This document shows, one piece after another, positions 4,602 through 28,856 of a stretch of DNA of 34,368 nucleotides. The notes beneath the pieces were generated by a model. It was not told the DNA's origin, did no database searches, and saw only the letters and a list, made by a program, of their open reading frames with translations. This DNA comes from a virus, in IMG/VR virus record IMGVR_UViG_3300027771_000047, positions 1-34,368 of that record. One strand, written 5' to 3'. How positions within the stretch are numbered: the stretch's first letter is position 1; each line of letters starts with the position of its first letter. A program made the translations under genes and the position numbers.

Positions 4602-5060
4602 TTATAGTGTTGCGTCTTCTAATCCCGCACATCGTAACTTAATTACGTTAGTGAGTTGCCATTGCTTCACTTCAAGTGCTTTGATAACGCCCATGAACTT
4701 ATTTCTAACCATTGAAAATTCAACAATAAGATGCTGTAAATCAACTACATCAGGCTCACCATCAACAAATGCTTTCGCGTCTGCTGACGTTAATGCGCGT
4801 TGGTAATGCTCAGTAAAGTGTCTAAACTTCTGACTGCGCAATTTGCGCATTTCAGTATTTAAAAATTCAAGTATCGCTTCTGTCTCTTGTAGTTGGTTGA
4901 AACGATGTTCAACGATGCCCGGAATATCACGACTGTGCTTTTCCAAGGAACCTTTCATACTACATTCAAACTTAGCCTCTGAAACTTGTATTTCATAATG
5001 TGAAATAGCATTTACTATCTCTGACAAATCTCCAGTGACCTTGCGATACCATTTACTCAT
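4602..5060 (-). CDS. uvsY: UvsY-like recombination mediator
   Basis: This 152-aa all-helical protein lies two genes downstream of uvsX and just before the operon terminator. UvsY displaces gp32 and loads UvsX onto single-stranded DNA. The layout fits the family: an N-terminal helical region, a central HYQRAL-containing segment like the YYSG region of T4 and cyanophage UvsY, then a long helix ending in QWQLTNVIKLRCAGLEDA, corresponding to the conserved C-terminal helix. T4 UvsY is 137 aa. Overall divergence from T4 is large. I rely on the resemblance to UvsY forms I recall from marine T4-like phages and on synteny with ssb and uvsX. The alternative is a different helical mediator at the same locus. 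Confidence 0.75.
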   Translation of the reverse strand: MSKWYRKVTGDLSEIVNAISHYEIQVSEAKFECSMKGSLEKHSRDIPGIVEHRFNQLQETEAILEFLNTEMRKLRSQKFRHFTEHYQRALTSADAKAFVDGEPDVVDLQHLIVEFSMVRNKFMGVIKALEVKQWQLTNVIKLRCAGLEDATL

Positions 5061-5066
5061 TTAAGT

Positions 5067-5315
5067 TTAATCCCACTCTTCTTCTTCGTCTGTATCTACA
5101 TCTTCTTCGTGTTCAATGTATTCATCAACACTAGTTTGAAGATATTTATCATGCTCACTGATCTGTTCTGCATTACCAGCAATATCAAATCCATATTGAT
5201 CTAATATTTGTAGAAAATGTTCTGCGAAATTTCCGCGCTCTTTTTCTACAACACTAGACCTTGCAGCATCATACATGGCAATGATAAATTCTAAATCATT
5301 ATCACTCAGACTCAT
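5067..5315 (-). CDS. Small acidic protein between uvsX and uvsY
   Basis: This 82-aa protein starts within the last four bases of uvsX (ATGA overlap) and ends 6 bases before uvsY, so all three are translationally linked. It is strongly acidic, with a C-terminal run of Glu and Asp residues (roughly 68-81). There is no transmembrane segment or known motif; the N-terminal 50 residues are predicted helical. Acidic tails in single-stranded-DNA-metabolism proteins, including gp32, often serve as protein interaction sites or DNA mimics. A role in modulating UvsX or UvsY assembly is a reasonable inference from position but has no direct support. Confidence 0.7.
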   Translation of the reverse strand: MSLSDNDLEFIIAMYDAARSSVVEKERGNFAEHFLQILDQYGFDIAGNAEQISEHDKYLQTSVDEYIEHEEDVDTDEEEEWD

Positions 5316-6403
5316 TGATCATCCCCTTCGGTAACTAATTCATCACCACTAGAATCTAAGATCGCTTCTGGTTGTTGTTCCCACTCGCGCATCATGATAT
5401 CTAGACAATCATCTGTATTCTTTGACCATGCTTTACGGAACTTCTTAATAACTTCGCCAGTTACGGGACTAATGTACTCAAGACTGTTACCAGACTTTTT
5501 AAGTGCACCTTTCGCTTCAAAGAATTCAGTCAATCCACTGTAAGGACTCATACCAGTATCATATGGAATTTCTACTTGTACACTCTCAAATGGTTTAGCA
5601 TAACGTGTCTTCATTATCTTACACGCTGCACGAATACCATTTACAGTAGTCGTTTTGTTACCATCTTCGTCAACTTTTAACTTCAATTTACGCATTGCGA
5701 TTACAATTGAACTTGCGTAGATAAATCCTTGACCACCAGAGATTTTATCATCGGGATCAAACATATCTTGTGATGCATAGGTGTGATTCGTAGCAAGTAA
5801 ACCTACATTGTATTCACCTAACATATTTACAGTGTTACGAACAAGTGAGGTTAGTGCTTTAGGTTTGCGACCTAAGTCACCTTTCATGTCGCCTGCTTCA
5901 AACTGCTTAACATCGGTAGGTGTTAATAACATACCTAGACTGTCTACAACGAATAAGATTTTAGGACGATCTGCTGGCTCTTTATCACCATGCTCAGTCT
6001 TGTAATCTTTCATCAAGTCAGACATAATTTTAGCAACATCATCAATCATTGCTACGTTCAACTTCATCAATTTTTCTTCACTCGTATCTACACCTAATGC
6101 ATGTAACCATGCTTCGTCTAGTGCATTTTCTGAGTCAATTAGAACAACATAAATATCTTGCTCTTGTGCATGACGAATAATGTTTCCCGAAGCAATATAT
6201 GATTTCCCTGCTCCAGATTCGCCTGCTAGTACTGTTACTTTACCTAGTGGGATACCTTTATCAAAGTCTCCGCTAATTAGTTTGTTTAATGTAAAATTAC
6301 CTGTTGAAATCCAAGTATCAGGATCGTGAAATCCAGTGCTTAGACCAGGAACCGCCTTGGTAATACTCCGACGGAACTTAGACACATCAAATGGTCTTGC
6401 CAT
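5312..6403 (-). CDS. uvsX: UvsX RecA-like recombinase
   Basis: The phage RecA homologue forms ATP-dependent filaments on single-stranded DNA and catalyses strand exchange for recombination-dependent replication and repair. From the ATG at 6403 it is 363 aa, close to T4 UvsX. Walker A is GESGAGKS (61-68) and Walker B is ILFVVDSLGM (149-158). The segment around AMRKLKLK and the ISGGQG region match the RecA-fold core with its DNA-binding loops, and an acidic C-terminus is present. I chose the ATG at 6403 because AAGGAG (6415-6410) lies six bases upstream. An in-frame ATG at 6430 would place that site inside the gene and overlap the hairpin at 6423-6443. It follows ssb by 50 bases and is coupled to the 82-aa gene. 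Confidence 0.95.
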   Translation of the reverse strand: MARPFDVSKFRRSITKAVPGLSTGFHDPDTWISTGNFTLNKLISGDFDKGIPLGKVTVLAGESGAGKSYIASGNIIRHAQEQDIYVVLIDSENALDEAWLHALGVDTSEEKLMKLNVAMIDDVAKIMSDLMKDYKTEHGDKEPADRPKILFVVDSLGMLLTPTDVKQFEAGDMKGDLGRKPKALTSLVRNTVNMLGEYNVGLLATNHTYASQDMFDPDDKISGGQGFIYASSIVIAMRKLKLKVDEDGNKTTTVNGIRAACKIMKTRYAKPFESVQVEIPYDTGMSPYSGLTEFFEAKGALKKSGNSLEYISPVTGEVIKKFRKAWSKNTDDCLDIMMREWEQQPEAILDSSGDELVTEGDDQ

Positions 6404-10719: not shown

Positions 10720-10727
10720 TATTTATC
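10720..10727 (-). promoter_or_regulatory. Late-promoter-like octamer abutting the gene 17 start
   Basis: GATAAATA overlaps the stop codon of the SGNH gene (AGATAA) and lies six bases before the terminase ATG. If used, transcription would start on or next to the ATG, giving a leaderless message. It may be a chance match. Confidence 0.35.
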
Positions 10728-11436
10728 TTTGTCCATTATTCAATATATCGACAATCTCTGGTGTCAATATGTAATTTTCTAATACCCAATCATTTGCTGA
10801 TGGACTCCAATGAGTATCAGTTGGCGAAACTGTAATTCCCGCATCAAATAAGGCATTTCCTCTACGCTCTTCTCCTGGGATATTAATCGGAAGATTATGA
10901 AAAGCCTGTAATTGATGTTGGGCGCTGTTTGAACGAAAGGGCAATAGTTCAAGTTTTATTATGTGTTTGAAATTGTATAATGAATCAATTGAATCAAACC
11001 ATTTATTATGATAATCTTGACTTGTATTGGATATACTTCTATTAGCCAATGAAATATTTATTTCTTTTACCACTGCGTTGAAAGGACTACGTCCTTGCTT
11101 GTGAGGCTCTTGTCCGCTAAACCATATTTGCTCTATCAATTCCAATGTCTGATAATTGTCTGATTTACGTATCATTTCAAAGTTAAAGCCACCATCGCCA
11201 TGTAACTGTGCGACTCTATGCTTAAATGGTCTGTTGACAAAAATAACATCTATATCTTTAAGTTTTGCATCAAGTAATGACCATTGGAACAAATCAGTTC
11301 CGCGACCACCCCATGCATAATTATAGTATTGATGCTGTGGGAATTGTTGTGATAACTTCCACGACCAATGATTGTTATATTGACCATCTTGTCTATATGC
11401 AGAGAAACTATCACCTATGAATGCAATTTTTAACAT
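10723..11436 (-). CDS. SGNH/GDSL-family hydrolase
   Basis: This 237-aa SGNH-fold hydrolase has the nucleophile motif IGDSFS at the N-terminus (Ser10), a glycine in block II (WGGRGTD, around 42-48) and the C-terminal catalytic pair in DTHWSPSAN (Asp207, His209). The canonical block III Asn is probably in IFVNRP (around 68). SGNH enzymes deacetylate or cleave esters on glycans, peptidoglycan or lipids, and phage versions can trim host surface polysaccharide. There is no signal peptide, so it acts in the cytoplasm or on the virion. It follows the SPASM-like gene with a single base between them and precedes the terminase, completing a three-gene block that interrupts the usual packaging cluster. 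Fold and catalytic residues are clear; the substrate is unknown. Confidence 0.85.
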   Translation of the reverse strand: MLKIAFIGDSFSAYRQDGQYNNHWSWKLSQQFPQHQYYNYAWGGRGTDLFQWSLLDAKLKDIDVIFVNRPFKHRVAQLHGDGGFNFEMIRKSDNYQTLELIEQIWFSGQEPHKQGRSPFNAVVKEINISLANRSISNTSQDYHNKWFDSIDSLYNFKHIIKLELLPFRSNSAQHQLQAFHNLPINIPGEERRGNALFDAGITVSPTDTHWSPSANDWVLENYILTPEIVDILNNGQR

Positions 11437-11437
11437 A

Positions 11438-11767
11438 TTATTTATTAGAACAATGTTTTTTGCACAACAACGGTGGATTTTCGCTATTCCATCCTTCGGG
11501 TGCGATATATTTCTTGAATATATTATTTTCTAATATATCATCAAGATCATGATAGTTTAAATCATTCCAAGTTTTATCTTTATCAAATTCAGCCTGTAAT
11601 ATTGCATCACTCGCTAATGTTTTTGCATCAGATCGGTTACTATTGCCATTAAAATCTTCAAATGCTTGTGAGTATTTGCAACATGGCCATACAGTTCCAT
11701 CTTGACTCAATTGAACATGCACTAATGTGTTTCTTTGCATGAACGGACATATAATATTATAACTCAT
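11438..11767 (-). CDS. Stand-alone SPASM-like cysteine-rich protein
   Basis: This 109-aa protein has Cys7 in IICPFM, a Cys-Cys pair at 29-30 in GTVWPCC, and Cys102 and Cys106 in LLCKKHC. That spacing and the dG-x-VWPCC turn are typical of SPASM or twitch domains, which bind auxiliary iron-sulfur clusters at the C-terminus of radical SAM enzymes. Here the domain is a separate open frame whose ATG lies inside the end of the radical SAM gene (11-base overlap, frame shifted by +1). Together they would total about 364 aa, the size of a single-chain radical SAM/SPASM protein. It may be a coupled subunit, a programmed frameshift product, or a recent split. The cysteine pattern is seen directly; cluster binding is inferred. 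Confidence 0.75.
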   Translation of the reverse strand: MSYNIICPFMQRNTLVHVQLSQDGTVWPCCKYSQAFEDFNGNSNRSDAKTLASDAILQAEFDKDKTWNDLNYHDLDDILENNIFKKYIAPEGWNSENPPLLCKKHCSNK

Positions 11768-12524
11768 CTAGTAACTTCCAAAGTGGACTGTTTATGTTGT
11801 ATTTCTGTGCTAACATCATCTCTTGCTCGTCCGTTACTGCATTAAACTCGGTTCTATTAAATAGCATAAATAATGAACACCCTATATCGGTTGCCATTTG
11901 CATGGCTTCACCTATCTGATGATCATTATGATTGAAGATTATGTATTGCCATTCTGCATCTGCTGGAGTTGCAGAAAACGCTTTCATATTTTCATACGCT
12001 TTGTCAAAATTAACATCTACTCTATACATATTGTTTATTTCTTGATTTGTACCATCTATGCCAAAAATTATTCTCAGTTTATCTTTATATTTGTTACCAA
12101 GATGAGTATACCATTTAGCATTACGCAATGCTCCGTTTGTAGATATTATTATATATGCCACTTTACTTGCACATATATCAATAATTTCTTCTATCTGTGG
12201 ATGCATCATCGGATCACCATAATCACCGCTAAGTCTAACAATTGCAGTCTCATTGAATATCTTAGTACTCTTTGTCATCTTTTTTAAAATATCTATACTT
12301 AGATGTTCCAACTTTAAGCCAGGAATGGTCAAACCATCATCGCCTGTTCTAGCACATGACGGACATCTCGCTTGACAAAAAGTGGTAGGTGTCAAGTCGA
12401 TCATATTATGTTTTCTTTTTCTATGACCAACTTTGGTAGGATTAGATTTAGGTGCTGAAACTGCAAGCGCGTTATCATACGGCTTATCAATGTCGTCGAC
12501 ACTGATATCTATTGATTCTGGCAT
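11757..12524 (-). CDS. Radical SAM enzyme
   Basis: This 255-aa protein has the radical SAM cluster motif C50-x3-C54-x2-C57 (FCQARCPSCAR), which binds the 4Fe-4S cluster that cleaves S-adenosylmethionine. It also has a GDPMMHP segment near residue 100 (the usual SAM-contacting strand after beta-2), a STNG strand near 128 and GIDGTNQE near 155, matching the partial TIM barrel. The first 40 residues are polar and probably flexible. The protein stops before the SPASM-type domain, which is encoded by the next, overlapping gene. Radical SAM/SPASM enzymes commonly modify peptides or proteins, but no precursor peptide gene is evident next to this one. It follows the 159-aa leader-bearing protein by 8 bases. 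Confidence 0.9.
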   Translation of the reverse strand: MPESIDISVDDIDKPYDNALAVSAPKSNPTKVGHRKRKHNMIDLTPTTFCQARCPSCARTGDDGLTIPGLKLEHLSIDILKKMTKSTKIFNETAIVRLSGDYGDPMMHPQIEEIIDICASKVAYIIISTNGALRNAKWYTHLGNKYKDKLRIIFGIDGTNQEINNMYRVDVNFDKAYENMKAFSATPADAEWQYIIFNHNDHQIGEAMQMATDIGCSLFMLFNRTEFNAVTDEQEMMLAQKYNINSPLWKLLDEL

Positions 12525-12532
12525 AACCTTCT

Positions 12533-13012
12533 CTATTTTGATATGATATTTTTTACTGATATTTCTAAATTTTCTAAAAAGGTATCAATGTCAATATCAT
12601 CTGATTCAACAACTTCATTGGTTTTTGATTTTCTTTTATCTTGACTACCACTCTTCACAATAGTATTAGGATTCACAGTAGAAGTAGATTTAGAAAATGA
12701 CCATTTAACAACTACTTTTCCATCACTCTCAATTTTAATTACTTTACCTGATGAACCTTTTGTGGCGTGTACAATGCTATCGCCTTTAGATAACTCTTTT
12801 GTAGATTCGGCAACTTGTGGATTTCTTGATAATTTACTGTCATCTACCCATCCTTCTGCATCACTCGTTTGTGACCTAATCAATACTTGATCAAAATCAT
12901 TAGGATTAATGCCTACTACTTCATACGATTTATTTTTATATCCGACAATATCACCAACCCTCAAAGGAGTTTCTAGTAATACCGCTTCCATCAATTTTCT
13001 CATTTCACTCAT
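12533..13012 (-). CDS. Putative internal capsid protein with capsid-targeting-like leader (159 aa)
   Basis: This 159-aa protein is the last of four consecutive genes whose N-termini look alike. Its leader MSEMRKLMEAVLLE is a short amphipathic helix ending in L-x-E, the type of site cleaved by the T4 prohead protease gp21. The mature part would have two small beta-rich modules: residues 17-60 (RVGDIVGYKNKSYEVVGI) and 75-105 (KGDSIVHATKGSSGKVIKI, then KVVVKWSF). Both resemble SH3-like or KOW-like barrels. A Ser/Lys-rich linker and an acidic C-terminal helix follow. Its ATG overlaps the upstream stop by four bases (ATGA). Packaging into the prohead core is an inference from the leader and position; the mature function is unknown. 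Confidence 0.7.
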   Translation of the reverse strand: MSEMRKLMEAVLLETPLRVGDIVGYKNKSYEVVGINPNDFDQVLIRSQTSDAEGWVDDSKLSRNPQVAESTKELSKGDSIVHATKGSSGKVIKIESDGKVVVKWSFSKSTSTVNPNTIVKSGSQDKRKSKTNEVVESDDIDIDTFLENLEISVKNIISK

Positions 13013-13470
13013 GATGCGTTACTCATATGTGCAATAAATTGTGCTAATGTACCAGATGGATTTTTCTCTTTCCATTTATCATGGTTCTCTTTGAACTTTG
13101 GGTGCTTGGGATCTGATTTCTCATAGGCTCCTTCGTCTACTATACCATCTTCGCTAACACCTTCAAACCACATTTCAGGATACTTATCTACCATATCACT
13201 AAAACTCATATTATCATGCATCGCTTTTAGATACTTAACAAGATCATTAGGCACGCCAGAAACATGTGCAGAACCACGTAACCAAGAAATTTTAATCTTT
13301 ACATTGTATTGTGCTTCAAGGTTTTCAATAAATTCGCCTTCTTCATTACGTTCACCAGAAAACAACCAAGGTGTTTTTATTGACACCCGTTTCCCGCCTG
13401 CTTCGTTCATTGTAGGCTGCAATTGAATATCTTCATTCAAGATATTCATTATTTTTCTCATATTGTTCAT
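13009..13470 (-). CDS. Putative internal capsid protein with capsid-targeting-like leader (153 aa)
   Basis: This 153-aa protein begins MNNMRKIMNILNED, aligning with the leader of the next gene (MRKLMEA) and ending in the potential protease site L-N-E. The middle contains a beta-rich segment (IKTPWLFSGERNEEGEFIEN, then KIKISWLRGSAHVSG), and the C-terminal 40 residues are charged and helical (DPKHPKFKENHDKWKEKNPS, then TLAQFIAHM). There is no enzyme motif. The ribosome site is AAAGGAAC, about nine bases before the ATG. Upstream is a 140-base leader with a 13-codon mini-frame at 13504-13545. I infer co-assembly with the prohead core from the leader. It may have another role, such as DNA binding, once cleaved. 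Confidence 0.7.
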   Translation of the reverse strand: MNNMRKIMNILNEDIQLQPTMNEAGGKRVSIKTPWLFSGERNEEGEFIENLEAQYNVKIKISWLRGSAHVSGVPNDLVKYLKAMHDNMSFSDMVDKYPEMWFEGVSEDGIVDEGAYEKSDPKHPKFKENHDKWKEKNPSGTLAQFIAHMSNAS

Positions 13471-13503
13471 AATAACGTGTTCCTTTATAATTTGTGCCGT
13501 TTT

Positions 13504-13545
13504 TTATATACATAGTAGCGAATTACATATAATGGATAACGGCAT
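13504..13545 (-). other. 13-codon mini open frame with a strong ribosome site
   Basis: ATG at 13545 is preceded by AAGGAG (13556-13551) with five bases between, one of the best ribosome sites in the window, yet the frame stops after 13 codons (MPLSIICNSLLCI). A 7-bp inverted repeat, AACGGCA (13538-13544) and TGCCGTT (13495-13501), encloses it and pairs with bases of its start codon. It could be a leader peptide controlling the gene at 13009-13470, or a decayed gene start. Confidence 0.35.
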
Positions 13546-13610
13546 CCTCTCTCCTTAGATAATAAAAACGGGCAAGCCAGTAATTATAACAGTCCTAAGG
13601 TCTAAGTTCT

Positions 13611-15029
13611 TTATAGTCCTGCGTTTCTAAGCAAGATTGCCAATTCTTTGGATTCTTCCAATGATTCTTCCACTGATGGTTCTTTCTTATCTCCATCGTA
13701 CTCTGGCTCATCGTCCATTGTAGGCTCTTTCTTATCTAACATCTTTTTGAATGCGGCTTTCTGTGCTGCACTCTGTGCTTCTGCAAGTTCTGATCCTGAA
13801 GCAGATTCTTTAACTTTGTATTTCTTACCGTCTACCTCAAACTCATCTTCGCCAGCATCCATTGCTTTCTTACGATTGCCTGAAAATTCGTTACCTTCGT
13901 TTGGTGCTTCTACCATAGTCTTTTTCTTAGATTCTTCGTATAATGATTTCATGCTGTCTATGGTGTGTTCAGATATACTCACCTTCTTGTCTTCTGCATC
14001 CATATAACGCTTCAATGACAAGTTCACAGGCTGTGCGTAATCATACGGATCACCATGTGATGCAGGTGAAGTTTCGCTGCAACCTTCTGGTGAATTTGCC
14101 CATTCAGTAATCTTACGCTCTATCGCTTCTTCTGACAGACCTGCAAGATGTAACATGCTTACTAATTGAGTAGTATCCATTGTTGGAGACTCATCTAATT
14201 TAGATGATTCTGCTACCCAGTTTTCACCCATTTCATCATCACAATCATGCTTGCAATCTGTAGTAGGCTTGTGTATTTCATCACCGCAATCCTTGCATAC
14301 TTTCTTAGTTGCTTCATATACTTCATATAAGTCGTCAGCATTTTCTTGGTCGTACTTCTTAATAAAGTCTGCTTTAGACATTGTTTCTGAATCGTCAATC
14401 ATTTGTGATTTGACTTTTCCTTCGTTCATTGAATTCTTCATGTTATCTGTATCCTTTTCTTCTGAACGCACTTCTTCGCCTTCTGCGACTGCGTCTATAA
14501 ATGTTACTGGTGTCAATACTGTGCCACCTGTTTTATGATCAAGTCGCAATGCCATGTAAGTACCATCAATTTTGGTCTTATAATCACGATGTATCTTTGA
14601 ATAATCTGATTTGGTCATTTCTATTTGACCTTCATCATTCACTTTTGCCATTGGGCCCATTGCTTCTTCAACTGCTTCTGTTTGCATTGCGTTTACAAAT
14701 GCATCAGTATAATCACCCCAATTTTCACCATCTTCATGTACAAAATTCATACCATCGCCAGTAACACTGACAATTTTGAATTCACCTTCTTGTACCGAAC
14801 CGAATGCTTCTATTTTAATATCAACTTGAATATCTTTAACATCAATATCATAGTCTTCTGATCCTTCGGATGAACCAAATCCATTTGCTACCGCAGTAAA
14901 TTCTTCACTGTCGCTTGTACGTTGAATATTATCTAATGTAACATTTCCGTCTACTATGACATTCATTACTTCCATTTCGTTCATTATAGGATTGATTGAT
15001 TCTAGTAACGTTCTCATTGACTTATGCAT
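13611..15029 (-). CDS. Acidic putative prohead-core protein (472 aa) with targeting-like leader
   Basis: This 472-aa, strongly acidic, low-complexity protein begins MHKSMRTLLESI, with L-L-E at residues 8-10 matching the prohead protease consensus. Further L-x-E type sites occur later (for example SLEES near 457), so it could be cut into several peptides like T4 core proteins. A cysteine/histidine cluster around residues 244-262 (CKDCGDEIH, then DCKHDC) could bind a metal ion. Near 405 is FEVDGKKYKVKES, a beta-hairpin motif that I associate with structural proteins of marine phages. It overlaps the upstream gene by 8 bases. Scaffold or internal-protein function is inferred from composition, leader and position; there is no direct match to T4 gp22. 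Confidence 0.7.
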   Translation of the reverse strand: MHKSMRTLLESINPIMNEMEVMNVIVDGNVTLDNIQRTSDSEEFTAVANGFGSSEGSEDYDIDVKDIQVDIKIEAFGSVQEGEFKIVSVTGDGMNFVHEDGENWGDYTDAFVNAMQTEAVEEAMGPMAKVNDEGQIEMTKSDYSKIHRDYKTKIDGTYMALRLDHKTGGTVLTPVTFIDAVAEGEEVRSEEKDTDNMKNSMNEGKVKSQMIDDSETMSKADFIKKYDQENADDLYEVYEATKKVCKDCGDEIHKPTTDCKHDCDDEMGENWVAESSKLDESPTMDTTQLVSMLHLAGLSEEAIERKITEWANSPEGCSETSPASHGDPYDYAQPVNLSLKRYMDAEDKKVSISEHTIDSMKSLYEESKKKTMVEAPNEGNEFSGNRKKAMDAGEDEFEVDGKKYKVKESASGSELAEAQSAAQKAAFKKMLDKKEPTMDDEPEYDGDKKEPSVEESLEESKELAILLRNAGL

Positions 15030-15522
15030 CTTTCTTCTCCTGATCTTTTTTCAATTTTAACAATTCTTGAACAAAAGAAGTATTGTACTTGTCACCGAAA
15101 TAATCGTCTGGATTTATTGACTCTGCTTCTGAATATGTGCTATCTGCTAATAAACTTGCAACTTCTGCATCATCTGATAATGCTTGTTCTTGTTTCTCTA
15201 GCGGCTCTTGATCTGAACGAACTTTCATGAAGCCGTCACTGATACCTAGTAGAGTTTGAATTTCTGTTTGTATTTGATATGCGCTTGCTGGTAAATTTGT
15301 TTCAAATTCAATAACAAATATCTCGTATCCACGAAGTTGTGGAAAGTCATAAGGTACGCTTTGTAGCATCAACTTAGTAGGTGCGCTTACTTTCTGTACA
15401 TCGTACTTTGCTAAGTGATTCTCAATGCGAGATAAATCATCGCCAGATAATTCCTTTGCTAATTTAATGCGGAAAGTGTATGTATTTTTTGATTCTGTCA
15501 AGTATTCTGTAAAGGACTTCAT
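15022..15522 (-). CDS. Putative internal head protein with canonical targeting leader (166 aa)
   Basis: This 166-aa protein starts MKSFTEYLTES, very like the capsid-targeting sequence of T4 internal proteins (MKTYQEFIAEA) including the L-T-E cleavage position at residues 8-10. The remainder has a ferredoxin-like beta-alpha pattern (YTFRIKLAKELSGDDLSRIE near 15-35, YEIFVIEFETNLPASAYQI near 66-84) and an acidic helical C-terminus rich in Glu and Lys. The fold could be a small DNA- or protein-binding module. A ribosome site AGGAG precedes the ATG, and the late octamer at 15548-15555 provides a promoter, so this gene probably opens the unit running to 13611. The leader is the strongest evidence that it enters the head. 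Confidence 0.75.
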   Translation of the reverse strand: MKSFTEYLTESKNTYTFRIKLAKELSGDDLSRIENHLAKYDVQKVSAPTKLMLQSVPYDFPQLRGYEIFVIEFETNLPASAYQIQTEIQTLLGISDGFMKVRSDQEPLEKQEQALSDDAEVASLLADSTYSEAESINPDDYFGDKYNTSFVQELLKLKKDQEKKDA

Positions 15523-15546: not shown

Positions 15547-16167
15547 CTATTTATCTTTATTGTAAAAATCACCAGACTTAATTAATTCCTTGCATCTTTC
15601 AAATTCATCATACAAACTAAGTTGTAGATAGACCCTGGCTTCACCAGAATCGTTTCTAACACCATGCACCTGTGTGGCATCCATTAATGTAGGATGAACA
15701 GTAGAATACGTGTGTGTGCCTAAATAAAATTCTTCTTGGTGACTTTCAACGCCACACGAATGTCCTGTTATTACTGTCTTATCTGAAAGAATAGCATAAT
15801 CGTAGTAATCTACACCAGCGCCACCGTCTGATGGTAATATTGGTATCATTATTACGCTCTTTCTTGAAAAATCTATATGTGGGTGGAATTGGAAACCAGG
15901 CTTATATACTGTTATTGCAATATTTCCACTTTTTATCTGTTTTACTTCTGGATTGAATAATTTAACAATATCTGATATCTCTGGATAATCTAAATATTCT
16001 TTGCCTTCTAGATCATCTACTCTTATTGAACTGAATAATCCTTCTGTGGCATTATCTCTTATTTTAGCATAATCCTGTGCGAAATGTTTCACTGACTCGT
16101 AGAATTTTTCTAATATGTCTCTGTCGTATGTTATATCAGTTAATGTAATAAATCTATCTTCGCTCAT
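15547..16167 (-). CDS. 2-oxoglutarate/Fe(II)-dependent oxygenase
   Basis: This 206-aa protein has the double-stranded beta-helix iron site of 2OG oxygenases: His97-x-Asp99 (in FHPHIDF) and distal His168 (QVHGV), then Arg178 (GEARVYLQLSL) positioned to bind 2-oxoglutarate. These enzymes hydroxylate proteins, nucleic acids or small molecules. The prolyl-hydroxylase-like form is common in marine T4-like phages, where targets are mostly unknown. It is coupled to gp16 by an ATGA overlap, and its stop codon region forms the late promoter of the next unit. Placement among packaging and head genes suggests late expression and perhaps virion-protein modification, which is inference. The catalytic residues are complete. 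Confidence 0.85.
   Translation of the reverse strand: MSEDRFITLTDITYDRDILEKFYESVKHFAQDYAKIRDNATEGLFSSIRVDDLEGKEYLDYPEISDIVKLFNPEVKQIKSGNIAITVYKPGFQFHPHIDFSRKSVIMIPILPSDGGAGVDYYDYAILSDKTVITGHSCGVESHQEEFYLGTHTYSTVHPTLMDATQVHGVRNDSGEARVYLQLSLYDEFERCKELIKSGDFYNKDK
15548..15555 (-). promoter_or_regulatory. T4-late-like promoter octamer GATAAATA
   Basis: GATAAATA spans the last codons and stop of the oxygenase gene (AAA GAT AAA TAG), about 26 bases before the ATG at 15522, with the ribosome site AGGAG between. It is well placed to start the unit of leader-bearing proteins. Confidence 0.65.
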
Positions 16168-16721
16168 GTATCTTCTTCCCCTTTGTCCATTGAGGCTAAT
16201 ATGTCTGCTAACATATCTGTGCGATTTCCGATCAATCTACCATCAATTGATTCTGGATCTTCTGGATTGTTTTTATTGATTACATGATCAACTTTTCGGT
16301 TATCCATGTTAAGTCGTTCTTTGCGCATCTGCAACTCAATCATTTTTATTTTTTTATCCATCTTTGTTTGCTTTGCGGTTATAGCGGCTGATAACATTTT
16401 ACTTGCACTATCCAATAATGCTGCTGCATTTCTATCGTCTACATTCTTTGCCAAATCTACTATATCATCAAATGCATTGATTGCCTTTTGTGCATAATCA
16501 TCCATCTCTCGGTCTATCGCTTCTAAGCCCACCACCATCGGCAATGCGGCATCTACCTTCATAGACATATCCATCGTGGTTGATTGCGTTGCTATTTGTT
16601 TCTTGAGTTCTGCTATCACTTCTTCTGATGACGGAACTATCTCATTTTCGTCATCATCAAAATTAAATGATATATCTTCTATAGGCGGTAAATTAAATGT
16701 ATCGCTTAGTTTCTGTGTCAT
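16164..16721 (-). CDS. 16: Small terminase subunit
   Basis: gp16 forms rings that regulate the large terminase and recognise concatemeric DNA. This 185-aa protein has an acidic, flexible N-terminus (to about 45), then a long helical core. The DDYAQKAINAFDDIVDLAKN segment matches the first coiled-coil helix of T4 gp16, and AAALLDSASKMLSAAITAKQ followed by KMDKKIKMIELQMR matches the second. A flexible tail follows, ending in a short helix (MLADILASMDKG) like the gp16 C-terminus. Length is close to T4 gp16 (164 aa). It is coupled by ATGA overlaps to gp4 upstream and the oxygenase downstream. T4 has gene 16 directly beside 17; here the two are separated by about 5.4 kb of inserted genes. Confidence 0.85.
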   Translation of the reverse strand: MTQKLSDTFNLPPIEDISFNFDDDENEIVPSSEEVIAELKKQIATQSTTMDMSMKVDAALPMVVGLEAIDREMDDYAQKAINAFDDIVDLAKNVDDRNAAALLDSASKMLSAAITAKQTKMDKKIKMIELQMRKERLNMDNRKVDHVINKNNPEDPESIDGRLIGNRTDMLADILASMDKGEEDT

Positions 16722-17175: not shown

Positions 17176-18156
17176 TTACTGACCTGCTTTGAAGTCACTG
17201 ATGTTTGCTTCAAATTTTTCTGCTGTATTGTAGAGGCTTTCGGCTTGACCTGATATTTCCTTGGTCGTTAACCATTCACTTCTATTAGTAGATAGATTGA
17301 ATACACCTACTTTATTAATCTGTCTGCTTTCATCAAATTCTACAGTAGGACCGTGTGGCATAACTAGCTTCCCATGCTTTGCATATATTGCTGATGCTTC
17401 ATTATATAAAACTGCTTCGTCTGCTGCTTTTGCTTCGTCTGCGCTTAATCCAGGAACATCTGTTATTGTCGCTGGTACAATAGATTCGACTGTTGTTATT
17501 GACTCTTGTCTAAGAGAAGATGATGCAACTGGTTCTTTCGCTAGTTCTATGCCATTGGTGGTTGTTTTATAACCCTCGTATGTAAAATCTATACGATATT
17601 GCACTGGTGCTGATTCTGAATAATTCAGTGTGTCGGCTTGTATATTAGTAATAATAGGATTATAAATTTCTATAATGTTTTTATCTTCATCAGAAGACGT
17701 TCTAATTATCTCTATCTTAGTAATATAATAACGATTATTGGTTAAATTAAAACCCTTACCACTTTCGTCAGAAAGAAAGTTTTCACTAATCGCATCATCT
17801 TTCATAATATCATAATTATCAGACATAGGACTTGAATAATAATGATTATTGTATCCAACTAGAAATCTTTCTATCTCTGCATCTCGTGTGTCATAGACGG
17901 ACATAGATATAGGGGTGTAATCAATTCCAGTTTGAATTGTACGCTTCTTATTATATTGATTTAATGTCTGGGTCTTTATAGAATGTGCCGGCATTTGTAT
18001 CTCAGATATTCTAGATAATTCAAGAGCATTGATACTGCCAATGTGATATATCTTTACAAGAAACTGAAACTTACTTCTAGGAACAAACAGATTTACAGAC
18101 GGACCGCGCTGGTCTTGTCTGTAAATCTGTGATGCGTAATTTGTTATCTTACTCAT
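17176..18156 (-). CDS. 54: Tail-tube-like baseplate protein (gp54/gp48 type)
   Basis: This 326-aa structural protein directly follows gp19. The first about 200 residues have the tail-tube beta-barrel pattern: FVPRSKFQFLVKIYHI, SRISEIQMPAHSIKTQTLNQ, then ISMSVYDTRDAEIERFLV and a closing YRIDFTYEGYKT strand. This corresponds to the duplicated tube fold shared by gp19, gp48 and gp54. The C-terminal about 120 residues are helical and Ala/Glu-rich. In T4, gp54 and gp48 start tube polymerisation on the baseplate. The position next to gp19 and the size (T4 gp54: 320 aa) favour a tube-initiator role, but I cannot distinguish gp54 from gp48 by eye. Confidence 0.6.
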   Translation of the reverse strand: MSKITNYASQIYRQDQRGPSVNLFVPRSKFQFLVKIYHIGSINALELSRISEIQMPAHSIKTQTLNQYNKKRTIQTGIDYTPISMSVYDTRDAEIERFLVGYNNHYYSSPMSDNYDIMKDDAISENFLSDESGKGFNLTNNRYYITKIEIIRTSSDEDKNIIEIYNPIITNIQADTLNYSESAPVQYRIDFTYEGYKTTTNGIELAKEPVASSSLRQESITTVESIVPATITDVPGLSADEAKAADEAVLYNEASAIYAKHGKLVMPHGPTVEFDESRQINKVGVFNLSTNRSEWLTTKEISGQAESLYNTAEKFEANISDFKAGQ

Positions 18157-18171
18157 ATTTAACTAACTTAA

Positions 18172-18750
18172 TTAAACTGTTGTTGCCGCATTACTGTGTC
18201 CGCCATTTGTAGTCAATGTAGCTTGATCATAACGGATAGTCATTTGCACTTGCACAACATCTGATGTTGCATAATTCAAATCACCGAATGTGGTGCTTGG
18301 AAGGAAACAACCATCAAGTTCCCATGAATCAATAACTGGTACATCACCAGCACCTTGTGAACCATCTAGTGTTTCAATTTTCATGCTGAATTTATAATTA
18401 GTGCCAGCATTTGCACTTTCTTGTGTTGCATAATTTACTTGCTTGTTCATTTGATCACGAATCGCACGTATAACATGGTTATTGGTATCATCACGTAATA
18501 CTACCGTAACATCTTGCCACATGTGCTTTCCTGCAAGACGAATTTTTGAGTTGTATGTGTCAATAGTGACATCTTCATGATCAACTGATGGTCTTGTTGC
18601 ACTAATTACATTCTGTGTAACTAATAGCCCTGTTCCTGTTGTGATACCCAAATTAGTGAATGTGACACGAAAGCGATATTGTAATTTTGGCATCAGTGTT
18701 TGTACGGTACTTGACCCTACTGGTATACCGAAGTTTGATAAAACAGCCAT
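18172..18750 (-). CDS. 19: Tail tube protein
   Basis: gp19 hexamers stack into the inner tail tube through which DNA passes. The 192-aa protein has the tube fold: LQYRFRVTFTNLGI (around 25-38), a strand segment with VDHEDVTIDTYNSKIRLAGK (around 55-75), WQDVTVVLRDD (around 78-88), the helical RAIRDQMNKQ segment, and a closing VVQVQMTIRYDQAT strand. Length and order agree with T4 gp19 (163 aa). It is preceded by a late octamer at 18812-18819 and a ribosome site AAGGAGAAATCAA. It is isolated from the sheath gene by the terminator at 18862-18880, so it can be transcribed to a higher level than the sheath. Confidence 0.92.
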   Translation of the reverse strand: MAVLSNFGIPVGSSTVQTLMPKLQYRFRVTFTNLGITTGTGLLVTQNVISATRPSVDHEDVTIDTYNSKIRLAGKHMWQDVTVVLRDDTNNHVIRAIRDQMNKQVNYATQESANAGTNYKFSMKIETLDGSQGAGDVPVIDSWELDGCFLPSTTFGDLNYATSDVVQVQMTIRYDQATLTTNGGHSNAATTV

Positions 18751-18906: not shown

Positions 18907-21309
18907 TTAACTTAAATCACCAGTATTGACAATACGAACTGGAATATAAATAAATTCACCAGACTTCGTAGGTTCAATTGCAATATCAACATAAATTTCA
19001 TTGCGATCAATACGTGCTGTTGTGTTATTGGTAGTATCACATACTACGCTGAAATCATACACACCACGATTAGCTTTAATGTTTGACAAGAAACCATCAA
19101 ACGTTGACTTGACATCATCGCGAATCGCTTCGTCATTTGGCTCAAACAAATATGGGCGAGAGATAACTGCAAAACGCTCACGCAAATATGCAACTAAACG
19201 AGCAACATTAACTCTATCTAATGCACTTGCTGATGCTGCTAATGTCTTCTGACCAAAGATAACAATGCCTTCTGTTGGGAAGTTAACAACTGGATTCAAT
19301 TTATTCAAATACATTGAATCACGATGTCCTTGTGTCAATGCAACTGCTACGAATTCATTTTCTGAGTTGATATAACCAACGTTAGATGCATTCTGAACAA
19401 CACCACGAGTCAAGCCCGCTGGTGCAAACCATTGGTAACTAACATTATCACTATATGCATAAGTGTAAAGAACACTATGTGATGCTGGTGCAACTACACT
19501 TGCGCCTGATACTGGATCAGTAGTCAATACGCTAGGATAGTAAGTTGCTGCATAAGTATTCTTGGTTACTAAGCCGTTTTCGCCATTCTCTGATGCGCCA
19601 TTTCCTTGTACCCAAGAGATTGCATCTGTTGGAGTCAATCGGAATGGTGCGTCTGCAACAACAAATGCTGTTTGATTGCGATCAGTGTTTAATGTTGTCA
19701 TTTCGTCCATCAACTCTGGATAGCCAGGTGCTGCGATTAAACGGAACTGAATAGTTTCTTCACGTAGTGCTGTTCCTGCTGTTCCTGATTGCATTGCCGA
19801 TGATACAACCTTACGTTGTGCCAAACGACCAAATGATCCAGCACCAGAGAATGCATTACTAGCGAAGTTGCGCCATTTCCATGCAGTTGTCAATGTCGTG
19901 TCATACTTACGTACAGTATTCTTTGAACGACACATGTTAACTGCTGATGTTCCTTCTGCATGTAACAATGGGTTAGGACCGCCTGCTAATACGTCTGCTG
20001 CTAATACATAAGCGCCTGCTGCTGTGTCTAAATCAGTGATATCACCAAATACTACACCATTAGATGTGCTTTGATCTGTATTGTCTTTAACAACCCATGC
20101 TGAACCATTGCTACGATATATAACTGGATAACCAGTTGCGTCAGTGTCAATCCAATAATCACCATCTGCCCCAACTGCGGGTGCTGATGATGTGTAAGTT
20201 ACATTAGTTGCTTTCTTCCATTTCTGTACACCACCATCTACTGCTACTTCAAAAATAGCCAATTCGTTTACTGCTGCATCAAACCAAATAGTGTTATTTG
20301 CTGCTACACCAACTGGTGCAGTTGTTTGCACTTTTGAAACCATGTCAACGAATAAATCAGTAGTTGAATTGTAACGATGAATAGATATGAAACCATCATC
20401 TACGTCAAACCAAATATCACCTTCTGTTAATACACGTGCTGTTGCTGCTGTACCATCTTGGAAAGTATCACCAACCACACCCGTAGGTGCTGCTGCTTGT
20501 ACATACATTGCAGTCTTTGATACAAATGATCCTGCTGCGGTAGTGAATAATGAAATATCATAATCAATGCCTGCGCCTGGAGATGTTGTCTTAATCCATA
20601 CATCGCTTGCTGCTGGCGAAGATGGTGCTGTGTAATGTGGTGACATTGTTGATGATGCGCCACCAGTTGTCCAACTAGAATCCAATGCAACCCAAGAACC
20701 ACTCTCACCAATCCAATAATGAACGTGTGTTGATGATACTACTTGTTCGATTGTAACTAGGTATTCACCGTTTACAACGGCTGCTGTTGGTGCTGCGTTG
20801 TGTGTTGAAACGATTTCAACACTTGGTGTTACTGCTGTCCAACCACTTGCGGTGTATTCAAAAATACCAAACTTAGATAGTGTTGGATTTACCCAATAAG
20901 TGTTTGTCACTGGTAAGCCGACTGGCTCTGCTGTCTTAGGACGAAGTGCCACTAAATCGACATCTGCACGAACAACATATGCTGCTGATGCTTGACCTAA
21001 GAATGAATATGCTGCTAATAGACCGTAATCATTAGTTTCATCGCCTTGTTGTACTGTACTTGATACTGTGCGGAAATCTACATTTCCGAAGTATTGAGTT
21101 AGTTCACGTTGTGATGTTACTAGGACCGGGCTTCCTGCTACTGCTGATTTGGTATATTTTGCAATACCATCAATTTCTGTGCCAGTTGGGTCAACTTTGT
21201 CTTGACCTGTAGCGATAAAAATCATTGGTACTGTGCCAGCGCCTGCTGGTCCGTATACCGACTCGTCTGTTATTTGTACCTGTGTTCCAGGCGATACAAG
21301 ATTTGCCAT
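18907..21309 (-). CDS. 18: Tail sheath protein with a large repeat-bearing insertion
   Basis: gp18 forms the contractile sheath. At 800 aa it is longer than T4 gp18 (659 aa). The N-terminus (MANLVSPGTQVQITDESVYG) and the region SQRELTQYFGN followed by GLLAAYSFLGQASAAYVVRA (to about 115) are typical, and the C-terminal domain ends with the conserved assembly strand EFIYIPVRIVNTGDLS. Between about residues 125 and 410 lies an insertion of roughly six modules of 40-50 residues, each with a P-x-G turn, a [YIV]W[FIV] strand and a terminal aromatic strand (for example GDYWIDTDATGYPVIY, then GSAWVV). Such modules are probably exposed on the sheath surface. The ribosome site is AAGGAG, and the late-type octamer GCTAAATA lies at 21376-21383. 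Confidence 0.93.
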   Translation of the reverse strand: MANLVSPGTQVQITDESVYGPAGAGTVPMIFIATGQDKVDPTGTEIDGIAKYTKSAVAGSPVLVTSQRELTQYFGNVDFRTVSSTVQQGDETNDYGLLAAYSFLGQASAAYVVRADVDLVALRPKTAEPVGLPVTNTYWVNPTLSKFGIFEYTASGWTAVTPSVEIVSTHNAAPTAAVVNGEYLVTIEQVVSSTHVHYWIGESGSWVALDSSWTTGGASSTMSPHYTAPSSPAASDVWIKTTSPGAGIDYDISLFTTAAGSFVSKTAMYVQAAAPTGVVGDTFQDGTAATARVLTEGDIWFDVDDGFISIHRYNSTTDLFVDMVSKVQTTAPVGVAANNTIWFDAAVNELAIFEVAVDGGVQKWKKATNVTYTSSAPAVGADGDYWIDTDATGYPVIYRSNGSAWVVKDNTDQSTSNGVVFGDITDLDTAAGAYVLAADVLAGGPNPLLHAEGTSAVNMCRSKNTVRKYDTTLTTAWKWRNFASNAFSGAGSFGRLAQRKVVSSAMQSGTAGTALREETIQFRLIAAPGYPELMDEMTTLNTDRNQTAFVVADAPFRLTPTDAISWVQGNGASENGENGLVTKNTYAATYYPSVLTTDPVSGASVVAPASHSVLYTYAYSDNVSYQWFAPAGLTRGVVQNASNVGYINSENEFVAVALTQGHRDSMYLNKLNPVVNFPTEGIVIFGQKTLAASASALDRVNVARLVAYLRERFAVISRPYLFEPNDEAIRDDVKSTFDGFLSNIKANRGVYDFSVVCDTTNNTTARIDRNEIYVDIAIEPTKSGEFIYIPVRIVNTGDLS

Positions 21310-22080: not shown

Positions 22081-22818
22081 TTATCCTATTACAAACCCTA
22101 AACCACTACTTCCGTCATTGAACAACGTCAATTCCGTTTCCAACTTGTCAATTTCTGCTTCTGCTGATGCTTGTAGTTCACCAGAGTTCATTGTAGTACC
22201 ACCTTGTGGTCCTGCGATCTGTGCGAACTTACCGCGTGCTTGTGCAAGCATTAATTTAGCATGACATAATGCAAAATCCTTAATCCAAGGACCAGCGTAT
22301 ATATCTTTTAATAAAGCCTCTAATGGGCGATGATTGAATACGTGAAGAATACATATATCGTTTGCTTTCATCATTCTATGAAGAATTAATTTACTATCTG
22401 ACTTACGCCATGTAAACATTATCTCTGCACCAAATAAACGACCCATTGTTTCTCTATTCTGTTGTAAGAAATCAAAACTTGCTAAACCACCACTGCGACT
22501 TGAACCTAATAAATAAGTATTCAAGTAATTTGCTTGGAATGGTTCAAAATCGTTTCCAGTTCCCGATGATACACCAGTTGTACGGCGGTATATATCAGTT
22601 ACTTCGTCTATTTCACTAGGTAATGTATATTCTGCAACATCTTTCAATAATTCTAATGAAACATAACTTTCTTCTACCGAATTTTGTGCACGTTGACGAT
22701 ATTTTTCTACTGCTTTCTTGATTGATAGTTCATAGTGTTCTGGATCTAATTCCACGTCCACCATTTGACCACCTAATCGTAGTTCTATTTCTTTAATTAA
22801 ATCTGATTGTGCGCTCAT
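22081..22818 (-). CDS. 13: Neck protein, gp13-like
   Basis: This 245-aa protein begins with a helix and the motif LRLGGQMVDVELDPEHYELS, then KKAVEKYRQRAQ. This pattern is characteristic of the family annotated as neck (gp13-type) or head-tail connector in marine T4-like phages. Beta-rich segments (YVSLELLKDVAEYTLPSEID around 48-67, MFTWRKSDSKLILH around 133-146) and helices (AKLMLAQARGKFAQ) follow. T4 gp13 is 309 aa. In T4, gp13 and gp14 close the portal and receive the tail. Here the putative gp14 and gp15 are on the opposite strand about 2.4 kb away. The late octamer is at 22841-22848 and ribosome site AGGAG precedes the ATG. Alternative: another head-tail joining protein. Confidence 0.5.
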   Translation of the reverse strand: MSAQSDLIKEIELRLGGQMVDVELDPEHYELSIKKAVEKYRQRAQNSVEESYVSLELLKDVAEYTLPSEIDEVTDIYRRTTGVSSGTGNDFEPFQANYLNTYLLGSSRSGGLASFDFLQQNRETMGRLFGAEIMFTWRKSDSKLILHRMMKANDICILHVFNHRPLEALLKDIYAGPWIKDFALCHAKLMLAQARGKFAQIAGPQGGTTMNSGELQASAEAEIDKLETELTLFNDGSSGLGFVIG

Positions 22819-26320: not shown

Positions 26321-27679
26321 ATGGCACAATATTTTTATGACAGACAAATTCGTAGATACATACAACAGTTCATCAGATTGTTTGGTGGCTTTGATGTACA
26401 AATGGGAGTTAATGACCAAAAGATGCCCATATACCAAACTGTACCAGTTCGTTATGGTGATACCAATCGTATGGCTGCACATATTACTCGCGAAAATAGT
26501 GAAAATGTAATAAACACTGTTCCATTCATATCTTGTTATGTAACTGGACTTGACATGGCGCCTGAACGCAGAATGAATCAGCAACATGTAGATAAAGTAC
26601 AAGTATATGAAAAGGCAATAGATGAAACAACTGGTGAATACACTGGTGAAGTCGGAAATCGGTACACTGTAGAACGACATATGCCCGTTCCTTATAACCT
26701 AACTATGAATTGTGATATATGGTCATCAAATACAGATCAGAAATTGCAATTACTTGAACAAATAATGGTATTGTTCAATCCTACGTTGAATATCCATACT
26801 ACTGACAATCCCCTTGATTGGTCAAGTCTTGCATATGTTGAAATGAAAAGTTCGCAATGGTCAAGTCGTAGTGTGGGTGCAAGTGTTGACGATATCATTG
26901 ATGTAAGTACACTTACATTTGAAATGCCGATATTTATTAATCCACCAGCAAAATTAAAGCAGCAAAAATTGATTTATACAGTAATCAATCAATTGTATAA
27001 TCTAGATGATGTTAACTTAGATGCATTTGATGCAAACGAAGAATTTGATACAACATCACTACAATATGTAACCGTTACTTTAGACGATATGAAAGTTAAA
27101 TTTGAAGATAATAAGGCATTCTTACTAAATGAATCTGGTACTCAGGTTAATACAGATATTGGTGGATTGCTTGATTGGGCTAAATTCCTAATCCCATTCG
27201 GTGAATTGCGAGAAGGTATTAGTCAGATTCGTATGCGAAAATCAAGTGCGCCAAATGATATGGATAATGATATTATTGGCAGACTTACATTTGATGCGAA
27301 TAATGTAAATGCACTTAATGTAGAAATAGACACTAGTACATTGCCAACAAACACATTGACTGCGGTTAATGGGGTTTTAGACCCATTACAGAATTATCCT
27401 GGCGACGGATCGGTTGCTGCTGCGGTTGTTGGTGCTAGATATATTATTACTAATAATATTCCAAACGGACCCGAGTGGGCTGGCTTAACTGCAACCAAAA
27501 ATGACATTATTGAATATAATGGGACGAACTGGACTGTATCATTTGATAGTAGTGCGATCATCACCCAACAATATGTAGAAAACATCATTTCTGATGACCA
27601 ATTAGAATGGTCTGATGGTGATTGGATTAATAGTCATGAAGGAATATATAACTCAGGATTCTGGCGCCTTTATATATGA
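26321..27679 (+). CDS. 15: Tail terminator / sheath stabiliser, gp15-like
   Basis: This protein starts MAQYFYDRQIRRYIQQFIRL, closely following the T4 gp15 pattern MFGYFYNSSFRRYATLMGDL. VPVRYGDTNRMAAHI, LPF-like TVPFISCYVTGL, VPYNLTMNCDIWSSNTDQKL and QIMVLFNPTLNI also match the gp15 core order, up to about residue 230. gp15 caps the tail and joins it to the neck. At 452 aa it is much longer than T4 gp15 (272 aa). The extra C-terminal part (about 250-452) is a beta-rich extension ending with modules such as DIIEYNGTNWTVSFD and GDWINSHEGIYNSGFW, like those in the sheath. It begins two bases after gp14 and overlaps the next gene by four bases. Confidence 0.75.
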   Translation: MAQYFYDRQIRRYIQQFIRLFGGFDVQMGVNDQKMPIYQTVPVRYGDTNRMAAHITRENSENVINTVPFISCYVTGLDMAPERRMNQQHVDKVQVYEKAIDETTGEYTGEVGNRYTVERHMPVPYNLTMNCDIWSSNTDQKLQLLEQIMVLFNPTLNIHTTDNPLDWSSLAYVEMKSSQWSSRSVGASVDDIIDVSTLTFEMPIFINPPAKLKQQKLIYTVINQLYNLDDVNLDAFDANEEFDTTSLQYVTVTLDDMKVKFEDNKAFLLNESGTQVNTDIGGLLDWAKFLIPFGELREGISQIRMRKSSAPNDMDNDIIGRLTFDANNVNALNVEIDTSTLPTNTLTAVNGVLDPLQNYPGDGSVAAAVVGARYIITNNIPNGPEWAGLTATKNDIIEYNGTNWTVSFDSSAIITQQYVENIISDDQLEWSDGDWINSHEGIYNSGFWRLYI

Positions 27680-28272
27680 TCAAATACGATGGTCATATGT
27701 GTTGGCATCAATTGTCCAACCATACTGACGAATCTATGATTCATTCGTGTGATTGGTTAGAATTCATGCTACCGAAGCAACATGCTATCACAGTTGAACT
27801 AACTATATTGTCAATTTGTACATTTGACGATCATATTAAACATATACTGAGTGATTATCCTAATATAGAAATAATATACATATATAATAGTACTAGACTT
27901 GATCCTAGGTATGTATCACAGGAAATACTAGAGCATTTTATTAAAGTCTTTAATAAGTATGATAAACATATAAATTTTATATATAATGAAGGTATTGAAT
28001 CTCTAATTAAACACAAAACAATGCCAATCTCTGTATTCAATAGTTTTTTGAGTACATATAAAACGTTTGCATGGCGACCAGAGGATTTTGAAGATTATAT
28101 AGATGAACATGGACCAGAATATCGTGCATTATGGTCATCACTAAATGAATATCATAAAGATTTTACATGGAATGACTTTGTGTGTATTGTAACCAACAAT
28201 TTAAAACCCGAAAATCAATGTACAATGAATATAGAACGTGTATTGGAAGGATGCAAAGATTTCAAAGATTAA
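27676..28272 (+). CDS. Tandem paralogue 1, unknown function (198 aa)
   Basis: This 198-aa protein is clearly paralogous to the next gene. Both begin MIKYD-x-HMC-x-H-x-L, share HSCDWLE, LP-x-Q-x-AIT-x-ELT-x-LSI, FDDHI-x-HILSDYPNI, YNSTRLDPRY, IYN-x-GI-x-SLI, F-x-W, YRALWSS-x-N-x-YH and FTW-x-DF. No catalytic motif is evident, although the conserved Cys/His residues near the N-terminus (HMC, then H, then HSC) could form a metal site. The start overlaps the gp15 stop (ATGA). Low GC and a late operon position suggest late co-expression with the tail genes. Function is unknown. A host-directed or modifying role is only conjecture. Confidence 0.7.
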   Translation: MIKYDGHMCWHQLSNHTDESMIHSCDWLEFMLPKQHAITVELTILSICTFDDHIKHILSDYPNIEIIYIYNSTRLDPRYVSQEILEHFIKVFNKYDKHINFIYNEGIESLIKHKTMPISVFNSFLSTYKTFAWRPEDFEDYIDEHGPEYRALWSSLNEYHKDFTWNDFVCIVTNNLKPENQCTMNIERVLEGCKDFKD

Positions 28273-28283
28273 GGAATAACATT

Positions 28284-28856
28284 ATGATCAAATACGATGC
28301 ACACATGTGTCATCATGAGTTAACAAACCAAATTGATGAAACAAATAGTGACAGTAGACGCAATATGCATTCATGTGATTGGTTGGAAGATGTGTTACCT
28401 AACCAAATCGCTATAACAATTGAACTTACGCTATTATCTATTGACAGATTTGATGATCATATTGAACATATACTCAGTGATTACCCTAACATAAAGAAAA
28501 TACACATATATAACAGTACTAGACTTGATCCTAGATATTCTTGTCAATCTACTATTGATAACTTTATTAAAAGTCTGCAAAAATATAATAATCACATTGA
28601 TATCATATACAATGACGGGATAGATTCATTGATTAGACATGAAGAGATGTCTGCATCAGTATTTGACGCATTATTGCTTGAATATAATTCATTTATGTGG
28701 AGTGTCAACGAATACCCTTGTTATATTGATAAAGATAATGCATATTACAGATCATTGTGGTTATCCATAAATGTATATCATCAAGAGTTCACATGGGGTG
28801 ATTTTATTAAAATTATAGACGATAATTTATCACTATATAAATATTACACATATTAA
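28284..28856 (+). CDS. Tandem paralogue 2, unknown function (190 aa)
   Basis: From the ATG at 28284 (AAGGAATAAC upstream) this is 190 aa. An in-frame ATG at 28182 would overlap paralogue 1 by 91 bases and lacks the shared N-terminus, so 28284 is chosen. It aligns with paralogue 1 through the whole length, with an N-terminal insert of about seven residues (NSDSRRN) and a different C-terminus. Conserved elements are HMCHHEL, HSCDWLEDVLP, ELTLLSIDRFDDHIEHILSDYPNI, YNSTRLDPRY, RSLWLSINVYH and EFTWGDFI. Equal spacing and the absence of frameshifts show that both copies are under selection. Function is unknown; a duplicated unit with complementary specificity is possible. Confidence 0.7.
   Translation: MIKYDAHMCHHELTNQIDETNSDSRRNMHSCDWLEDVLPNQIAITIELTLLSIDRFDDHIEHILSDYPNIKKIHIYNSTRLDPRYSCQSTIDNFIKSLQKYNNHIDIIYNDGIDSLIRHEEMSASVFDALLLEYNSFMWSVNEYPCYIDKDNAYYRSLWLSINVYHQEFTWGDFIKIIDDNLSLYKYYTY

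Follow-up and report, generated by a model that had tools for sequence, protein, structure and literature searches.

Putative T4-type capsid-targeting leaders on four adjacent genes beside the large terminase of an ocean T4-related phage

The internal proteins IPI, IPII and IPIII of phage T4 carry a capsid-targeting sequence (CTS), a short N-terminal leader with hydrophobic residues at positions 4 and 7, L or I at position 8 and E at position 10, behind which the mature parts are variable and unrelated (PMC9026906, PMC3012670). Mutants in the IPIII targeting sequence assign positions 4 and 7 to targeting and positions 8 and 10 to processing, and D10 blocks processing only (PMC9026906). The T4 shell proteins gp23 and gp24 have propeptides that end at a related site (GSFLTE/AE in gp23 and the N-terminus MAKINELLRE/S in gp24, the slash marking the cut here and below). 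Among the head and ejection proteins of phiKZ and SPN3US, those of the head are cut by a diverged gp21-like protease after a short motif whose last residue is E (PMC9026906). An inner body of undefined make-up has been described in phages 121Q and phAPEC6 (PMC7247149; PMC5646251).

The window, meaning the whole 34,368-nucleotide stretch analysed, is a 34 kb piece of a T4-related myovirus, an ocean phage with kinship to the giant T4-like phages. Four adjacent minus-strand genes, in the order D-C-B-A and with no genes between them, are flanked by a gp4/gp16-like pair and the large terminase (Table 1). A sequence-only reading had proposed that their products begin with leaders ending in L-x-E and have unrelated mature parts. 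ORF coordinates and N-termini were confirmed exactly, with predicted cuts at MSEMRKLMEAVLLE/T in A, MNNMRKIMNILNE/D in B, MHKSMRTLLE/S in C and MKSFTEYLTE/S in D, and no common domain was found behind these similar leaders, A being SH3-like, C acidic with a Cys/His cluster and D predicted to be ferredoxin-like. The leaders resemble the label used for head loading in T4, and the four proteins are therefore probably packed inside the virus particle.

Table 1. Positions in the window of the four genes, their leaders, the LAG motifs of C and the surrounding genes.
Feature	Position	Strand	Remarks
Neck protein	22081-22818	-	First in transcription order
Tail sheath	18907-21309	-	After neck protein
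Tube	at 18172	-	After tail sheath
Second tube-like protein	at 17176	-	After tube
gp4-like head closure	at 16718	-	After second tube-like protein
Small gp16-position gene	at 16164	-	After gp4-like gene
Possible 2OG oxygenase	15547-16167	-	Weak match to PF05118; directly upstream of D
Gene D, 166 aa, probable conserved head protein	15022..15522	-	phrog_14802 virion structural protein; CBB_210 homologue in virions
Leader of D, MKSFTEYLTE, predicted cut before S11	15493..15522	-	Positions 4, 7, 8 and 10 conserved over a set of 18 phages
Gene C, 472 aa, acidic mosaic protein, Cys/His cluster	13611..15029	-	Homologues differ by large insertions/deletions
Leader of C, MHKSMRTLLE	15000..15029	-	Weaker T4-pattern fit; swapped in L004-L006
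Internal LAG motif of C, MLHLAGL (within LVSMLHLAGL)	14136..14156	-	
C-terminal LAG motif of C, LLRNAGL, at stop	13614..13634	-	Resembles scaffold C-terminus
Gene B, 153 aa	13009..13470	-	Final 60 residues 57% identical to L137 C-slot protein
Leader of B, MNNMRKIMNILNE	13432..13470	-	Strict pattern: I7, I10, L11, E13
Gene A, 159 aa, SH3-like	12533..13012	-	PF23044; homologue alignment
Leader of A, MSEMRKLMEAVLLE	12971..13012	-	L12 and E14 invariant in six homologues; strict pattern
Radical-SAM/SPASM/GDSL-like cassette	10723-12524	-	Between A and large terminase
Large terminase	at 9158	-	After radical-SAM cassette
Virion structural protein	at 7842	-	After large terminase

The longest relatives examined were G001 (148,882 bp) and G003 (103,158 bp). 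The window, L019 and G001 have the possible 2OG oxygenase gene, which G003, L013 and L017 lack. The radical-SAM cassette occurs in the window and L146, partially in L006, and is missing in G001, G003, L013 and L017; its slot in L166 and L177 holds a PP-loop-like gene, an identity taken from our own reading of the sequence. Neighbouring plus-strand genes at 27676-28272 and 28284-28856 specify paralogous proteins with no assigned function. The T4 late promoter TATAAATA occurs at 2 sites in the window, fewer than the 4.87 expected, both on the plus strand and neither upstream of A-D, and the count of sigma-70-like promoters in the window was not above that in shuffles.

D matches the phrog_14802 profile over residues 1-161, nearly its full length (E=7.6e-16). 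In the giant phages CBB, GAP32, 121Q, RaK2 and Vibrio phage 2.275.O the homologues occupy the same gene order (sheath, tube, tube, gp4-like, small gene and D), and in PA5oct, Phosso and Atu_ph07 their surroundings are similar. Absence from virions was looked for, and D homologues are present in those of two phages: 13 unique peptides covering 60.5% of CBB_210 were detected (PMC5259590), and the PA5oct homologue carries an ESI-MS/MS mark. D is probably a conserved head component of this phage group. Its predicted structure (mean pLDDT 70) has a leader helix at residues 4-11, a strand/helix core in ferredoxin-like order and a flexible C-terminal part; among solved structures the best matches of the model are chiefly to ribosomal protein S6 and to folds of the PII-like kind, all weak and with low TM-scores, and a ferredoxin-like/S6-like fold is predicted. 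A sequence search of the PDB with D gave no matches.

The D leader was compared in 18 phages. Positions 4 and 7 are hydrophobic in all 18, L8 is kept in 17 and E10 in 15, residue 9 is variable and S is usual at position 11, and the conserved positions are those mapped functionally in T4 IPIII. The RaK2 homologue has D10 in place of E10, and those of PA5oct and Phosso retain residues 4 and 7 with the cut site gone. A search with residues 1-25 of the L177 homologue against 38,880 phage families placed phrog_2667, 'internal head protein', at the top (E=0.012), and this family was also the sole match of the window D leader (E=0.19, not significant alone). With the leader removed, the bodies of D and of the L177 homologue gave no match to phrog_2667, and because the match vanishes in this way, D shares the leader type of that family and not its membership.

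The interval from D to the terminase behaves like a mosaic slot, since the C leader has been swapped, a module of A is missing in several homologues and a module of B recurs in L137. In the sister phages L004, L005 and L006 the body of C is retained and its leader is replaced by the unrelated MHEIRNYVNIINE/S, which ends I-N-E/S. The DNA of L006 and the window is identical over 37 nt through ATGCAT, then unrelated for 60 versus 120 nt, then 98.3% identical over 296 nt, and both alternative leaders terminate in [LI]-x-E/S. A has SH3-like matches to PF23044 above the cut-off of that family (E=1.7e-4), and several homologues are missing its second SH3-like module; the predicted structure of A was dropped as evidence on the fold owing to low confidence (mean pLDDT 58). 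For B no family could be assigned with confidence, and the window and a near-identical contig are the only places where it is whole. The L137 C-slot protein that shares the last 60 residues of B begins MNMKKLIE/S. Searches of a phage collection with A, B and C gave no matches. Leader conservation in homologues is seen for D (18 phages) and A (L12 and E14, six homologues), and homologues of C have re-acquired a leader; like the virion detections, this partial check came out in favour of the sequence-only reading.

The motif itself was tested under a loose rule, [LI]xE with E at positions 6-18, on the proteins of phage CBB genes 180-275. There was no enrichment in the virion set, 7 of the 30 MS-detected proteins carrying the motif versus 17 of the 64 others (27%; Fisher p=0.80). 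The MS-detected head-block proteins 210, 213, 214, 254, 256 and 257 all have a loose [LI]xE, a grouping made post hoc. By itself, an N-terminal [LI]-x-E carries little weight, since about a quarter of CBB proteins have one whether they belong to the virion or not, and because the loose rule fires so often in CBB, four such leaders in succession are not decisive alone. The earlier reliance on L-x-E by itself is to this extent abandoned. A strict T4-like pattern (phi-x-x-phi-[LI]-x-E, E at 9-15) was chosen after the leaders had been seen, and its figures are descriptive: of the 41 ORFs called in the window it matches A, B and D and no others (3 versus 0.34 expected), and with S, T or A required after E there are 2 matches in the window (A and D; 0.06 expected), 4 in G001 (0.40 expected) and 3 in G003 (0.10 expected). 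The A and B leaders have the same spacing back from E as the T4 pattern. C fails it, with S at 4 and T at 7 instead of hydrophobic residues, so the proposal that all four leaders are of the T4 capsid-targeting type is supported for D, A and B and fits C less well.

A Peptidase_S77 (gp21-family) protease was found above cut-off in the relatives G001, G003 and G007. The search of the window alone gave no S77 match because the window is a fragment without that block. In G001 and eight giant phages, L-x-E followed by S, T or N stands in the major capsid precursor where the variable propeptide meets the conserved body, and the G001 junction NYLTE/SA can be set against EYLTE/S in D.

Several other genes carry similar N-termini. 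In giant phages (L057, L059, L063 and L064), the product of the gene that follows D opens with a variable stretch whose closing L-[NQ]-E either abuts a conserved RPY[SG]R body or stops one residue short of it. A further neighbour begins K-[KQ]-I-N-E-A, and both look like additional prohead protease substrates. A cytidylyltransferase-like enzyme (PF01467) at L047:9949-10557 (G001 85949-86557), also present in G003, has the leader MRISDIITE/S and is possibly packaged in the head.

A second motif is shared by C and the scaffold. In G001 (L041), G003 and all eight giant phages, a variant of LxxLAGI makes up the C-terminus of the scaffold protein that adjoins the protease; the motif is absent from the T4 gp22 terminus. 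C-slot proteins of L021, L166, L168, L169 and L175 begin with a LAG motif, and that of L166 ends with one too. Among the 239 distinct ORFs of the fetched viral loci, LxxLAG[IL] lies no more than 3 residues from the C-terminus in 6 (0.18 expected; all C-slot or scaffold proteins) and near the N-terminus in 6 (0.78 expected; all C-slot proteins), the motif having been picked after the data were seen and the homologues not being independent. Over the whole G001 contig, 4 of 6 LAG occurrences are C-terminal, one of the 4 probably by chance; the LAG-like end of G001 5033-5431, which sits in a membrane-like segment, was set aside as a probable chance occurrence. Tentatively, and with the odds somewhat against it, these patterns could reflect two separable head-loading signals. 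One would be a T4-type leader that is cut off, the other an LxxLAG[IL] terminus that is left uncut and mimics the scaffold C-terminus, so that cargo would dock where the scaffold docks.

Taken together, the sequence comparisons make it probable that the first 10-14 residues of A-D are T4-type capsid-targeting propeptides, with D a conserved head protein and A-C variable cargo like the T4 internal proteins. The amphipathic leader would dock each protein onto the prohead core, and the S77 (gp21-family) protease would then cut after L/I-x-E, freeing the mature protein within the head. A, B and C would be rapidly changing mosaic proteins, filling a variable cargo slot that lies between D and the large terminase. 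We accept prohead targeting and processing in the case of D and A, consider them likely in B and call them plausible in window C; actual targeting and cutting, the residence of A-C in the head and any release into the host are inferred.

The leaders may also be processed on proteins that build the head, as parts of the core, inner body, vertex or minor shell, and are not delivered to the host, a reading to which we give slightly less than an even chance. It draws on the single gene order in which D is kept within the structural block across giant phages, on the inner body of 121Q and phAPEC6 (PMC7247149; PMC5646251) and on the similar 10-residue leader of the processed T4 vertex protein gp24, but A, B and C are too variable and mosaic for a fixed structural part, and B is lacking in most relatives. 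The earlier proposal of a co-packaged cargo set is kept for A-C, which are mosaic and internal-protein-like, and modified for D, which is conserved group-wide and may be an ordinary head component; A-C resemble T4 internal proteins, and D is more likely to be a lasting part of the head.

The D homologues of RaK2, PA5oct and Phosso, which keep positions 4 and 7 and not the cut site, would also suit leaders that target the head and stay uncut, with L-x-E incidental. What makes this unlikely is that E10 persists in 15 of 18 phages next to a variable residue 9, and that the same site stands in the capsid propeptide. Coincidence is less probable still: many proteins start with a short amphipathic helix, and the loose motif occurs in 17 of the 64 non-detected CBB proteins, but the D site is kept over deep divergence, the A leader is conserved and the C leader has been swapped for another. 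Counting against capsid-targeting propeptides as the preferred reading are the unenriched loose motif in CBB virion proteins, the loss of E10 in RaK2, PA5oct and Phosso, the non-hydrophobic residues at 4 and 7 in window C, the many C-slot proteins that begin with a LAG motif and have no L-x-E leader, the absence of a protease gene from the fragment itself, and the post hoc choice of the strict pattern.

The leader offers a rule by which head-packaged proteins can be named from sequence in a large group of marine and giant T4-related phages, most of whose virion contents lack annotation, and the finding marks a variable cargo slot beside the terminase. It also renders the inner-body question of 121Q-like phages testable, and 121Q encodes a D homologue. 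The leaders could act as loading tags in these phages, like the CTS in T4.

In the literature examined, no targeting role was found for the leader of phrog_14802 (CBB_210, GAP32_204 and 121Q gp557), a family with no assigned function to which D belongs by its near-full-length profile match and gene order. With head proteins of phiKZ and SPN3US, A-D would have in common, by analogy, cleavage after a short motif ending in E; no sequence link to those proteins came up. The T4 gp24 and gp23 propeptides share the cut motif of A-D, but these are shell proteins to which A-D have no similarity. The likeness to the T4 internal proteins lies in the leader and in the unrelated, variable mature parts; here the mature proteins are others, the genes adjoin the terminase instead, and the leaders, recognised from sequence, have 10-14 residues, with the register shifted in A and B relative to the T4 CTS. 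The loading mechanism is known from T4, and the present set of cargo genes appears to be undescribed.
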